The notes beneath the pieces were generated by a model. That model ran no database searches, was not told the origin of the DNA, and saw nothing but the letters and a program-made list of their open reading frames with translations. From positions 3,720,001 through 3,784,000 of the forward strand of contig AP027304.1 in the NCBI GenBank assembly GCA_036322835.1: a stretch of 64,000 bases of DNA. The letters run 5' to 3'. A program made the position numbers and the translations under genes. Within the stretch, counting starts at the first letter, position 1. The number at the start of each line of letters is the position of its first letter. This DNA is from Tenuifilaceae bacterium CYCD. GTDB taxonomy: Bacteria; Bacteroidota; Bacteroidia; Bacteroidales; Tenuifilaceae. Positions 39,314 to 44,113 of the stretch are shown piece after piece.

Positions 39314-40861
39314 ATGATGGAAGATTTCCTTTACAAATCAAGAAGTTATAAAAATATTGAACTTTGGAAAGATGTAACCGAAACTCAGTGGAACGACCCT
39401 AATTGGCAATTGAAAAATTCAATTAGAACTGTGGATGAACTAAAAAGAGTAATCAAACTTTCGGTTTACCAAGAATTAGAAATTAGACTAGTTGTTGAAA
39501 AATTATCGGCAGAGGGTAAAGATCCGCTCAGAATAACACCTTACTACGCATCGTTAATGGAAGAAGATCCATTTCATCCCAATATGCTACCTGGCGAAAA
39601 GGTAGAAAAGCGTCTTGATCCAATATTTTGGCAAAGCGTCCCGACCCCTGCAAATCTACTCTTCCCTAATACTGGATTAGAAGCCGCCATGTGCGAAGGC
39701 TCCAGAAGTTACGGCGCAGCATACCAACGTTACCCCAACAGAGTTGCACTATTTGTTGCACAGAATACCAGCTGCGCATCGTACTGCGTGCATTGCCAAA
39801 GGGCAAAATCGCTCGATGCCTCAACCGATGTTAATACCGAGGATATTGAAAAGGGACTATTTTACATCAACTTCAACAAAAATATCGATGAAGTACTTGT
39901 AACTGGTGGCGATGCCCTAAGAATTAGCACAAAACGCTTACAGTATATCCTTGAGGAACTTGGCAAAATTGAGCACTTACGGGCTATCAGAATTGCAACA
40001 CGGGTTCCCGTGGTTCTTCCCATGGCTATAACCAATGAACTTCTGGAACTTATAAACAACTCTGTGAATAGATATAATAAAGGCAGTGAAAAATACGTGT
40101 ACTTTATGACGCACGTAAACCATTACCACGAAATCACACCTGAATTTGCTGCTGCCATTAAAAAGATCCGCAAGCACGGATTTACCATTCGAAACCAAAC
40201 CGTGCTACTAAATCATGTTAACGACTACTTTAAAACTTTAGCAGAAACATTCCGACGAATGCTTTGGGTTGGTGTACACCCATACTACCTACTTCAATGC
40301 CATAAAGAAAGGGGAATTGTACATTTTATTGTACCAATTCAAGTCGGAAAAATTTATATGAAGCACCTGCAAGGGTGGCTTTCTGGGATTGTTCGTCCAA
40401 ACTACGCCGCTAATATTGAGGGCGGTGGAGGAAAAGTTTTACTTATGCCTTCGGGGCATGATACTTTAAATACCACTATAAACATTGAAGATAAAATATC
40501 GGAAAGTTCTGCCACAGTCTATACATGGGACGATAAAAAAATATTTGAATACGAGGCATTAGGTCGTGCCTCGAGACAAGAATATCGACATGCAGTTGAA
40601 ATTATGGATAAGTTTATTGGCCGTTCTGGTGTTTTCCTTCCAAAAGTTATCATTGTCGACAAAAAAGGAAATCACATTGAAACTACTAATAGGACAAAAC
40701 TTCCTAGCTTTGAGAAAATGAAGAAAGCAAAACTTTTAAGCTACGAAGTCAATGAAAAAGGCATGCCGATTACAAACCCAGCAAAAATTTCGAAAAAATT
40801 AGATGATCTATTCAACAAAGAAAAGAATGCAGAAAAAGAAAAAGGGTTAAAAAACCTATAA
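39314..40861 (+). CDS. KamA-family radical SAM aminomutase, substrate unclear
   Basis: A 515-residue PLP- and SAM-dependent aminomutase-like enzyme. The iron-sulfur motif is C154-x3-C158-x2-C161 (SCASYCVHCQ) and the PLP lysine is Lys374 in EGGGGKVLLMPSG. Of the two aspartates that hold the lysine side chain in lysine 2,3-aminomutase, the first position is His330 (LQCHKERG) and the second is Asn367 (ANIEGGGGK). Glutamate 2,3-aminomutase has Lys and Asn there, so a substrate other than lysine is likely. Extra N- and C-terminal segments exceed the typical family length. The next gene is an MFS transporter 84 bases on. Confidence 0.85.
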   Translation: MMEDFLYKSRSYKNIELWKDVTETQWNDPNWQLKNSIRTVDELKRVIKLSVYQELEIRLVVEKLSAEGKDPLRITPYYASLMEEDPFHPNMLPGEKVEKRLDPIFWQSVPTPANLLFPNTGLEAAMCEGSRSYGAAYQRYPNRVALFVAQNTSCASYCVHCQRAKSLDASTDVNTEDIEKGLFYINFNKNIDEVLVTGGDALRISTKRLQYILEELGKIEHLRAIRIATRVPVVLPMAITNELLELINNSVNRYNKGSEKYVYFMTHVNHYHEITPEFAAAIKKIRKHGFTIRNQTVLLNHVNDYFKTLAETFRRMLWVGVHPYYLLQCHKERGIVHFIVPIQVGKIYMKHLQGWLSGIVRPNYAANIEGGGGKVLLMPSGHDTLNTTINIEDKISESSATVYTWDDKKIFEYEALGRASRQEYRHAVEIMDKFIGRSGVFLPKVIIVDKKGNHIETTNRTKLPSFEKMKKAKLLSYEVNEKGMPITNPAKISKKLDDLFNKEKNAEKEKGLKNL

Positions 40862-40898
40862 TCGTAATCGAATTTATACAAGAAACCATTCCTTAAGT

Positions 40899-40970
40899 GG
40901 TTATGTTGATAGGTATTAGATGCTATTTTAATATCTTTGTGCTCCATGAAAAATACCTATCAGCATAACC
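40899..40970. repeat. 19-base inverted repeat flanking the MFS promoter and start codon
   Basis: The left arm GGTTATGTTGATAGGTATT (40899-40917) and right arm AATACCTATCAGCATAACC (40952-40970) are reverse complements with a single mismatch. The 34-base spacer contains the -7 box and the ATG. The left arm includes the TTG of the promoter and the right arm encodes codons 3-9. The centres are 53 bases apart, close to five helical turns. Confidence 0.85.
40906..40939 (+). promoter_or_regulatory. MFS gene promoter, near-leaderless
   Basis: TTG (40906-40908), 23 bases, then TATCTTTG (40932-40939). The ATG at 40946 is only six bases after the box, so the transcript would begin at or beside the start codon. 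The TTG lies inside the left arm of the inverted repeat. Confidence 0.65.
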
Positions 40971-42118
40971 TTTCCCGATTATACATACTCAAGATATCGC
41001 ATTGGTTTATGCTGATAATGCCAATTGTGGTTTTGTTCTACCAAAGCAACGGGCTCAGCATAAAGCAAGTATTCATTCTTCAGAGTATTTACTCACTATC
41101 AATTGTACTGCTAGAAATTCCTTCGGGATACTTTGCCGATGTTTTAGGAAGAAAAAACTCCTTAATTGCCGGTGCAATTCTAGGCTTTGCTGGTTACTCC
41201 ATCTACTCAATTTCAGCAGGTTTTATAGGCTTTATGATTGCCGAAATCATTCTTGGCTTTGGTCAAAGTATGATTTCGGGCGCTGACTCGGCCCTACTAT
41301 ACGACTCGCTTCTTGACGATGGCAAACAGGACAACTACCTAAAACTTGAAGGTAGAATGACATCGATTGGGAACTTTGCCGAGGCCACTGCTGGAATTAT
41401 TGGAGGACTACTTGCTGCATATAGCTTACGTTACCCCTACTACGGACAAACCCTAATTGCATTTATCGCCTTTCCTGCTGCGCTTACTTTAATAGAACCA
41501 AAAATCAACCAGAATAGGATTGATTTAAACTGGAAACAGATTATTGGAATTGTTCGCTACTCGTTAATCGAAAATGCTGAATTACGCTGGAATATAATAT
41601 ACTCGTCGGTTGTGGGGGCATCTACACTGACCATGGCTTGGTTTGTACAACCCTGGTTAATTAGAGCCGATGTTAAGGTGGAGTCGTTCGGAATTATTTG
41701 GACAGGACTGAACCTGATTGTTGGTGTTGCTGCAATGTACGCCTATAAAACAGAACTTAAATTTGGTCGAAAACAAGTAATTATCGCATTTAGTATCGCA
41801 ATTGGGCTTGGGTTCATAATTGCAGGAATAATACCTCACCTGTGGGCTTTAACCTTTTTCGTTATTTTCTACATTGCTCGGGGAATTGCAACGCCAATAC
41901 TAAAGGATGGAATTAATCGTATATCGCCCTCAAATATGAGAGCCACAATTCTCTCCGTTCGAAATTTCACCATACGAATTATCTTCTCAATTTGGGGACC
42001 TTTTTATGGTTGGCTTACCGATAAATGGAGCTTAATGCATGCATTGGTGATTGCTGGGATGATTTTTATTGTGTTGGCAAGCATATCTATAATAGCCTTA
42101 AGTAGAAAGAAAATTTGA
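40946..42118 (+). CDS. MFS transporter
   Basis: A 390-residue, roughly twelve-helix major facilitator. The loop 2-3 motif GYFADVLGRKNSLIAGA is the MFS signature A, and it is partly repeated between helices 8 and 9. EIILGFGQSMISGADSALLYD is typical of drug or small-metabolite exporters. The ATG at 40946 is chosen because the alternative TTG at 40937 lies inside the -7 box. Substrate is unknown. Export of a beta-amino acid from the enzyme encoded just upstream is a possibility, but the separate promoter argues against simple co-expression. Confidence 0.88.
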   Translation: MKNTYQHNLSRLYILKISHWFMLIMPIVVLFYQSNGLSIKQVFILQSIYSLSIVLLEIPSGYFADVLGRKNSLIAGAILGFAGYSIYSISAGFIGFMIAEIILGFGQSMISGADSALLYDSLLDDGKQDNYLKLEGRMTSIGNFAEATAGIIGGLLAAYSLRYPYYGQTLIAFIAFPAALTLIEPKINQNRIDLNWKQIIGIVRYSLIENAELRWNIIYSSVVGASTLTMAWFVQPWLIRADVKVESFGIIWTGLNLIVGVAAMYAYKTELKFGRKQVIIAFSIAIGLGFIIAGIIPHLWALTFFVIFYIARGIATPILKDGINRISPSNMRATILSVRNFTIRIIFSIWGPFYGWLTDKWSLMHALVIAGMIFIVLASISIIALSRKKI

Positions 42119-42144
42119 AAAAACGGTTTAACTTGATAATTTTG
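42115..42144 (+). promoter_or_regulatory. WYL regulator promoter
   Basis: TTG (42115-42117, overlapping the MFS stop codon), 19 bases, then TAATTTTG (42137-42144). It is a full consensus match 24 bases ahead of the ATG. Confidence 0.8.
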
Positions 42145-42168
42145 CTGTAAACATAGAAAATTTCAATT

Positions 42169-43071
42169 ATGGCAAAAGGTTCAAGTTTATTGAGATATTA
42201 CCTCATAATTTATGCTATAAGAAACCTCAAAAAGACTAATTCAACTGAGATTATTTACTACCTAAGAGACCAAAGCGAGTATAGACAAATAGGCGAATTA
42301 AAAATCTCAAAACGTACATTAAGGAGAGACCTTTCCGATATTAAAAGTTTCTTTGGAATTGATATAGAGTATTCAAGAAAGGAAGGGCGATATATTGTTT
42401 CCAACTTCGAAGACCGAGAGACTTATATTGATGAGATAATGACTAATTTCGAAATTCTTAATTCAATAGAGGCACACCAAGGAAAGTACCCTGAATATAT
42501 TATCCCCGAAAATAGAAAGCCAAGAGGGAACCAGTATTTTGTTTTAATTAGCAAGGCAATAAAAGAATGTAAAAGGGTAACGTTTAACTACAAAAAATAC
42601 TATCCCGAGGTATCCGAAACAAGGACAGTTGAGCCCTATGCTTTAAAGCAAAGCCGAGAAAGGTGGTATATTTTAGGTTTTGAAAAAGAAGATTCTACTG
42701 AAAAATCATTCGGTTTGGATCGGATAGAGGATCTAAAAATTACAGAAGAGAGATTCGAAAAGAAGGAGGTTAACTGGAACGCCAAATACCACGATGTGTT
42801 TGCAATGTTTACCGATGGAGAAAAGGCCGAAGACGTTGTGCTATCCTTCGACCATAGGGACGGCAATTATATTGAGGCTATGCCAATACATCACAGCCAA
42901 AAACTTACCCGAGAACAGGATAGGACAATAGTAAAACTCCATATTCAGATAACTTTAGATCTGATTATGGAGCTTATGTCGCGTAGTTGGTCAATTGAAG
43001 TTATTGAACCACAAAGTTTACGGGAAAAATTGCATAATATTTATAAAGGGGCGATGGAGAGGAATAGTTGA
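42169..43071 (+). CDS. WYL-domain transcriptional regulator
   Basis: A 300-residue regulator. The N-terminal winged helix-turn-helix covers about residues 5-70 (ISKRTLRRDLSDIKSFFGID is the recognition part). It is followed by the WYL ligand-binding domain, about residues 125-215: RVTFNYKKYYPE, TVEPYALKQSRERWYILGF and FGLDRIEDLKI. The C-terminal WCX extension is present. WYL proteins sense nucleotides or other ligands and are often found near defence genes. Its 3' end is 4 bases from the convergent unknown 345-residue gene. Confidence 0.92.
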   Translation: MAKGSSLLRYYLIIYAIRNLKKTNSTEIIYYLRDQSEYRQIGELKISKRTLRRDLSDIKSFFGIDIEYSRKEGRYIVSNFEDRETYIDEIMTNFEILNSIEAHQGKYPEYIIPENRKPRGNQYFVLISKAIKECKRVTFNYKKYYPEVSETRTVEPYALKQSRERWYILGFEKEDSTEKSFGLDRIEDLKITEERFEKKEVNWNAKYHDVFAMFTDGEKAEDVVLSFDHRDGNYIEAMPIHHSQKLTREQDRTIVKLHIQITLDLIMELMSRSWSIEVIEPQSLREKLHNIYKGAMERNS

Positions 43072-43075
43072 AGTG

Positions 43076-44113
43076 CTAATTTTTTGCACGTTTTATACTA
43101 TTTTGCTTACTCTCCATAATTTGTAACACAATAAATTTATTGATATAATTTAAATCGGTTATTAAATGATTGATTTCATTGACATTAAAGGAGTGTGAAT
43201 TGATGAATTGGTTGCCTGCTGATACCAAATCGTTTCTAACTAAGAATTTTTTTCCATGAATTTTCTTTAATTCAACTGTTAATGATTCTAATGTATTAAG
43301 ATTTTCTTTATGCTTAGTTAACAATTCCTTCATAGGTACTTCGTGGTCTATTACAACTTGTCTAAATGACTTAACATACATTGGAGTTGTATTTGAATTC
43401 GAAGCATATTTGGTATGTAAAATGTGATTTGAATTGTCCTTACAAACCAAATGAACTTCACCAATTTTATTAATCTTTAATGTCTCGATATCTTTAATAT
43501 AAACAATGTCTTTGTTGGTAATAAACTTAATCTTATCTATCTGATTATCAATCCATAAATCAAACTCTTTGCGAGCTAAATTTTTGTAACAAATCTTTTT
43601 AATAAGACTTATTGGGAAAAATACATCTCCGTAAAATCGATCCTGTGTCAAAAGCCTAATTGTAAAATTAGTTTTTATTTCATCTCCTGTTATTAAAACT
43701 TCTTTTACATTTTCAAGAGGAAGTAATTCTTCATTTTGTAACTCTTCAATCTCTTCCTCTATTGTAACAAATTGATTCAATGATGATTTGGAATTCTGAA
43801 TTAATTCACTTAAAAAATAGTGATACTTTCTTAATGCGCTTGATGAATCTCTAAGCTCTTTTATTGACATTTTGGGTTTCTCAGAACATTTTTCACTGTT
43901 AATTATAGTGTAGAAACCAGAAAATACATCATTCAATTCTTCAATATCCCCTGAGTCTATTAGGGCTTCAAATTGAGATTCTTCAAGTGTCATCAGTTTG
44001 TATTCTTCAAAAAAGGATGAAATATAACTTGAATAAGAACTACCCGAGGAAAATCCTTCGTTACTCATCCATTCAATAAATTGATCTCGTAAGTAAAATT
44101 TATTTTTTGCCAT
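43076..44113 (-). CDS. Uncharacterised 345-residue protein
   Basis: The frame has an ATG start and coding-like composition but no family I recognise. Residues 1-40 (FIEWMSNEGFSSGSSYSSYI) vaguely resemble the helical core-binding domain of tyrosine recombinases, but no catalytic domain follows. The middle part (residues 140-260) is mixed alpha/beta with LLTQDRFYGDVFFPISLIKK. The C-terminal 80 residues are helical, possibly coiled coil. No signal peptide or membrane helix is seen. It faces the WYL gene tail to tail. Base use is slightly more AT-rich than the flanking core genes, which suggests recent gain. Confidence 0.75.
   Translation of the reverse strand: MAKNKFYLRDQFIEWMSNEGFSSGSSYSSYISSFFEEYKLMTLEESQFEALIDSGDIEELNDVFSGFYTIINSEKCSEKPKMSIKELRDSSSALRKYHYFLSELIQNSKSSLNQFVTIEEEIEELQNEELLPLENVKEVLITGDEIKTNFTIRLLTQDRFYGDVFFPISLIKKICYKNLARKEFDLWIDNQIDKIKFITNKDIVYIKDIETLKINKIGEVHLVCKDNSNHILHTKYASNSNTTPMYVKSFRQVVIDHEVPMKELLTKHKENLNTLESLTVELKKIHGKKFLVRNDLVSAGNQFINSHSFNVNEINHLITDLNYINKFIVLQIMESKQNSIKRAKN

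Follow-up and report, generated by a model that had tools for sequence, protein, structure and literature searches.

Inverted repeats that bracket bacterial promoters have been described in several settings. In the invertons of Bacteroidales, inverted arms, for which a length of 10–40 nt is quoted (PMC11892184), flank a promoter, and a recombinase gene nearby or further copies of the arms in the genome would be expected. The operator sites described for BrxR-type WYL regulators (R-BOX) are built differently, from 10–11-bp arms that lie 5 bp apart (PMC9122601). Template switching is a mutational route to similar structures: it creates new hairpin stems in the form of reverse-complement repeats, in the cases described within microRNA and rRNA genes (PMC8794818). 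As to the promoters themselves, Bacteroidota use a −7 box spanning positions −12 to −5 (PMC6847099, PMC9723704), and a minority of their transcripts are leaderless. In F. psychrophilum 5.5% of the mRNAs that were mapped are leaderless (PMC9723704), in B. thetaiotaomicron about 3.7% of the 5′ UTRs are shorter than 10 nt (PMC7366714), and a leader of more than 10 nt is present in 87% of the predicted transcripts of F. johnsoniae (PMC6847099).

Here we analyse a dyad around the promoter and start codon of an MFS transporter gene of Tenuifilaceae bacterium CYCD, within a stretch of 64,000 nucleotides that we call the window. The locus shares features with each of the systems above. As in Bacteroidales invertons, arms of similar length flank a promoter in inverted orientation; like the R-BOX it is an inverted repeat close to a gene with a WYL gene as its neighbour; like the template-switch mutations described so far it is a reverse-complement copy of a nearby stretch, with a near-perfect stem, in one lineage; and its TANNTTTG box ends a few bases before the ATG, as in the leaderless promoters of Bacteroidota. 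It also departs from each of them. Unlike invertons it has no nearby match to the two recombinase families searched and no second arm site within two mismatches, and its spacer of 34 bases contains a start codon. Unlike the R-BOX its arms are 19 bp long and 34 bp apart, and one of them is coding. Unlike the published template-switch cases it spans the promoter of a bacterial gene and has no ancestral sequence to be compared with, and unlike the mapped leaderless mRNAs the transcription start of the MFS gene is predicted from the box. We lean towards the view that the dyad is a lineage-specific inverted duplication, produced by a template switch and persisting as a mutational scar to which neither a regulator nor a recombinase is dedicated.

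Geometry of the dyad and its improbability by chance

The left arm GGTTATGTTGATAGGTATT (40899–40917, plus strand) and the right arm AATACCTATCAGCATAACC (40952–40970, plus strand) are complementary at 18 of 19 positions, the only mismatch setting T40906 against G40963. They enclose a 34-base spacer (40918–40951, plus strand) and lie 53 bases apart from centre to centre. The dyad is therefore confirmed in every measure that the original prediction gave for it: two 19-base arms, one mismatch, the spacer and the distance between centres. As had also been claimed, the spacer contains the −7 box (40932–40939) and the ATG (40946–40948), together with the predicted transcription start, and the right arm is coding; it covers codons 3–8 and the first base of codon 9 of the MFS gene, that is NTYQHN plus the first base of L. 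The left arm is an inverted near-copy of this 5′ coding end; counted from the predicted start it runs from −45 to −27, which places it in the promoter's −33 region. The axis of the dyad, at 40934.5, falls within the −7 box. A TTG promoter element had been seen in the left arm as well. TTG does stand at 40906–40908, and TTTG around −33 is cited in PMC7366714; however, 23 bases separate the end of the trinucleotide from the −7 box, and it makes a weak case for such an element.

The MFS gene (40946–42118, plus strand) encodes 390 aa and matches PF07690 at 4.3e-20. Upstream lies a KamA-family radical SAM gene (kamA; 39314–40861, plus strand; TIGR00238, above cut-off), and a gene for a WYL-domain regulator (42169–43071, plus strand; PF13280) follows 50 bases after the MFS gene. 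The kamA gene is one of two such matches in its own genome and does not reach the model cut-offs for lysine, glutamate and arginine aminomutases; relatives at 72–76% identity were found in 4 of 39 other genomes searched, plus one in G024 (locus L005).

In the window the dyad is the sole repeat that has 19 or more pairs with no more than one mismatch and a spacer of 3–100 bases, and 40 simulated first-order Markov windows yielded none. Analytically, 0.0026 such repeats are expected per window, and 0.16 in a genome of 3.92 Mb. We also compared 247 genes from the window and a genome sample, all ORFs of at least 150 aa, whose starts are approximate since each was read as the longest ATG-to-stop frame. 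The dyad is by far the strongest start-straddling repeat among them, with a score of 16 followed by 10. Pure chance complementarity of the arms is thus improbable in our view: the genome-wide expectation would allow for one such repeat somewhere, but the expectation per window, the empty simulations and the outlying score among gene starts all speak against it. Random sequence is a poor explanation for the dyad, and because the dyad is improbable by chance, either a copying mutation or selection is needed.

With other criteria (17-pair core, at most one mismatch, spacer 3–120) we found 12 repeats in the window and a 400-kb sample of the same genome, ten in the sample and two in the window. A spacer of more than 10 bases occurs in three of them, namely the MFS dyad and two repeats in L092 and L103 whose surrounding sequence looks repetitive by eye. 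The repeat at L092:11309–11383 is an 18-bp inverted repeat with a 39-base spacer amid related repeats, beside a gene which, by eye, we take to resemble REP-associated (Y1-type) transposases. At L103:11268–11365 GC-rich near-repeats (TTGTAGCTGCACGAACAT and similar) form a run with an inverted copy at its end.

A candidate leaderless promoter

The −7 box TATCTTTG fits the TANNTTTG consensus, lies six bases before the ATG and is the sole exact TANNTTTG on the plus strand of 40801–41000. Since the box spans −12 to −5, transcription is predicted to start at about 40944, two bases before the ATG. Comparison with orthologues points the same way. Of 14 evaluable family loci (L003–L017, own locus included), 10 carry an exact TANNTTTG at a distance of 5–8 bases upstream of the ATG, and L013 has 7 of the 8 box positions at the matching place. 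The spacing from box to ATG is 13 bases in L005 and L006 and 16 in L014; none of the four more distant loci (L018–L021) has a box 5–8 bases before its ATG. Among the 247 genes of the own genome, with their approximate starts and the MFS gene counted, only five have the box at this distance, a rate not strictly comparable with that of the orthologues, whose starts were set by alignment and not mechanically. Widening the distance to 3–9 bases gives nine of 247 genes, versus two for the motif read backward.

As the box near the ATG is kept in orthologues, the MFS mRNA is probably leaderless and would start downstream of the left arm. If the predicted start holds, the MFS gene's own mRNA includes the right arm, at +9 to +27, but not the left. 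The pattern suggests that the MFS gene is a candidate for a conserved leaderless gene in the family, and this side result, a −7 box beside the ATG in most family orthologues, makes it a good candidate of that kind in Bacteroidales.

The two arms in related genomes

A search of 60 genomes (own included) matched the MFS protein in 28 and gave 19 loci, one of them our own, at 42% identity or more across most of the protein; a search with the MFS protein of 27 family genomes added no further loci. The relatives with names include Bacteroidales MAGs and Perlabentimonas gracilis, of the family Tenuifilaceae. Locus L008, whose start is masked, was excluded from the comparisons of the −7 box and of upstream inverted matches, the weak or short matches L022–L032 were left out of the upstream comparison, and L005 and L006 have identical upstream sequence, so they are not independent.

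The peptide of the right arm, NTYQHN plus L, is kept as protein in the relatives to varying degrees. The left arm has no counterpart in any of the 17 evaluable MFS orthologues, the same-genus locus L004 included. When the first 36 coding bases were matched in inverted orientation against the 200 bases upstream, the best score was 16 here and 5–9 in the 17 relatives. Locus L004, which is 86–88% identical, keeps the box, the ATG and TYQHNL and has no inverted copy. The highest score among the relatives, 9, belongs to the distant L018 and was reached by 6 of 200 mononucleotide shuffles; it may be chance among 17 loci or a weak repeat of L018's own. The original prediction had proposed a search of related genomes for both arms. 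The right arm was recovered, as protein, but among the genomes compared the left arm occurs in its own genome only, an outcome the prediction itself had named as speaking against it.

A cautionary point follows for similar loci: a striking dyad around a promoter and a start codon can be a private scar. Here it was the comparative test, with the right arm kept as protein and the left arm present in one genome, that separates the dyad from a conserved switch.

No other arm site within two mismatches exists in the genome, and at three mismatches there are seven arm-like sites, versus seven for a backward control. A regulon of arm sites was accordingly rejected at the sensitivity of two mismatches. 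The exact two-arm dyad, with a spacer of 20–50, is absent from the genome-contig collection, in which the records of the own genome are perhaps not included.

Recombinase and regulator as possible users of the dyad

An invertible promoter had been among the suggestions for this locus: a recombinase would flip the 34-base spacer and so remove the −7 box. The arms are of a length quoted for invertons and they do flank a promoter. A flipped spacer would no longer contain an exact −7 box, and translation from an ATG that is then in frame would give MEHKDIKIAS-NTYQHNL. The open flipped frame is a weak argument, however, as 46% of shuffled spacers stay open as well when CCATGAAA and the spacer length are kept. 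Our recombinase search covered PF00589 and PF00239 and returned seven Phage_integrase and two Resolvase matches in the genome, but all of them lie outside the window, as had been noted before, and the nearest is about 67 kb away. Together with the single pair of arm sites within two mismatches and the lack of a counterpart of the dyad in relatives, this leaves the suggestion unsupported, and we regard an invertible promoter as highly improbable.

A two-site operator was the second suggestion, in which both arms would be bound by a regulator that loops the DNA or brackets the promoter, possibly the WYL protein encoded at 42169–43071. The arms are spaced by about five helical turns, their point of symmetry falls in the −7 box, and the WYL gene is close by. 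On the other hand, no arm site within three mismatches exists at the WYL gene, in addition to the missing second site within two mismatches in the genome and the missing left arm in relatives. Among the loci examined the WYL gene adjoins the MFS gene in the own genome only; no recognisable relative of this WYL protein (E 1e-8) stands beside the MFS gene in the relatives, for which the flanks covered about 1.5 kb and in some cases up to 4 kb. The best matches of the WYL protein elsewhere are 34–35% identical (30 other genomes searched). The geometry also differs from that of the BrxR-type sites described in PMC9122601. Hence we found nothing that upholds a WYL looping operator, and an operator of either type is distinctly unlikely. 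When the WYL protein was run through PADLOC its best matches were to two WYL models, with weaker matches to three other models; three further ORFs gave no match at 0.01.

Possible RNA reading in from kamA

A further possibility concerns transcripts that may enter from upstream. Folded as RNA, the 72-base dyad reaches −25.7 kcal/mol (z −6.1). The stretch that follows kamA reaches −30.6 kcal/mol (z −4.2), whereas the predicted leaderless 5′ end folds at −0.5 kcal/mol only; as single-stranded DNA the dyad reaches −13.7. In RNA the mismatch becomes a G-U wobble, so that all 19 positions pair. Rfam gave no matches at gathering score in 40500–42200. In our scan there was no terminator-like site on the plus strand of 40600–43200, whereas G007 and G020 (the latter with no MFS orthologue) have a terminator after kamA. 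Given the folding energies and the lack of a terminator-like site in the scan, a hairpin that silences putative read-through RNA is possible. In this scheme the dyad would replace the kamA terminator, and a putative read-through RNA would form a 19-pair stem with the ATG in the loop near the stem, a reading that we consider tentative and rather unlikely. The same holds, with similar reserve, for its second part, namely that only the gene's own leaderless mRNA, in which the left arm is missing, would serve for translation of the MFS protein. In F. johnsoniae, structure in the start region is reported to lower translation (PMC6847099), which would agree with such an effect.

Several points argue against it. 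The hairpin has no counterpart among the 17 evaluable relatives, and the ATG sits in the loop, outside the stem. The terminator scan sees loops of 3–8 only; it found none in G017 either, although a hairpin and a T run with a longer loop are visible there by eye, so that its negative result at 40600–43200 is no proof of absence. The earlier idea of a hairpin that hides the ATG in read-through RNA thus stands as physically plausible, the one functional reading to survive, but fails on conservation, and as a whole the original interpretation of the locus is partly supported.

Taken one step further, a single mutation might have made the leaderless promoter a filter for transcript origin, with the MFS start folded into the 19-pair hairpin in putative read-in mRNA and the gene's own mRNA, whose 5′ end would lie inside the dyad, free for translation; we think this unlikely. 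If it were true, one template switch would have supplied a ready-made regulatory device in one lineage. More generally, an effect of the hairpin on read-through RNA, if real, would illustrate how one template switch can give rise to a regulatory element.

Origin of the dyad

The duplication that we favour would have proceeded as follows. The 19 bases from the start of the MFS gene (codons 3–8 plus one base) would have been copied in inverted orientation to a site about 50 bases upstream, most likely by one short-range template switch during replication, and the copy would have landed in the −33 region. There it seems to have left the −7 box and the protein intact and to have been tolerated; since neither was touched, we infer a mutational scar, whose only likely side effect might be the hairpin in RNA reading in from kamA. 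Nothing observed to date indicates that the dyad serves the cell as a switch.

The comparison with relatives supports such a duplication, as the right arm encodes a peptide that orthologues keep, and as the left arm is a near-identical inverted copy of adjacent sequence in one lineage only among the relatives evaluated. The difference between the arms is silent (CAA/CAG). The complement of the left arm reads CAA, as do L004 and L012, and L010 and L013 have CAG; CAA in the left arm would fit a copy that predates a change in the right arm, which, being a single base, weighs weakly in favour. The copying event itself is not reconstructable, as no relative examined is close enough at the kamA–MFS junction to preserve the ancestral left arm.

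Some observations count against a scar. One isolated copy cannot distinguish a scar from a new functional site, and the upstream inverted match of L018 has to be set against it too. The position of the axis within the −7 box could point to a function, and so could the start of the dyad just after kamA, where G007 and G020 have their terminators.

We also considered other sources for the left arm. Directly behind kamA, G007 carries a terminator whose core (GGTCATGCTGA) is similar; by hand count its stem begins about 24 bases past the stop codon, compared with 37 bases for the left arm. A decayed kamA terminator was rejected as the source because the similarity to G007 is no better than that of shuffled sequences: its score was reached by 753 of 2000 shuffles in global alignment of the whole region, by 377 of 2000 in global alignment with the −7 box left out, by 417 of 2000 in local alignment and by 1134 of 5000 in ungapped comparison. 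This equally weakens the likeness to a terminator on which the hairpin reading could draw.

Two similarities to other genomes were noted in passing. On the minus strand of L002, at 1501–1553, 53 bases are 79% identical to window positions 40918–40966 (E 1.9e-4), antisense within a gene that looks protease-like by eye. This match scores 41.9 bits and is rarer than shuffles predict: in a 400-kb sample 4 of 2000 shuffles reached 38 bits and none of 2000 reached 40. We do not take L002 as the origin, because the sequence on either side is in keeping with its own reading frame, and the box and the coding start are also present in L004. The second is L083, an MFS homologue with 38% identity in a sequence labelled Candidatus Woesearchaeota archaeon, either a case of transfer or a mis-binned contig.
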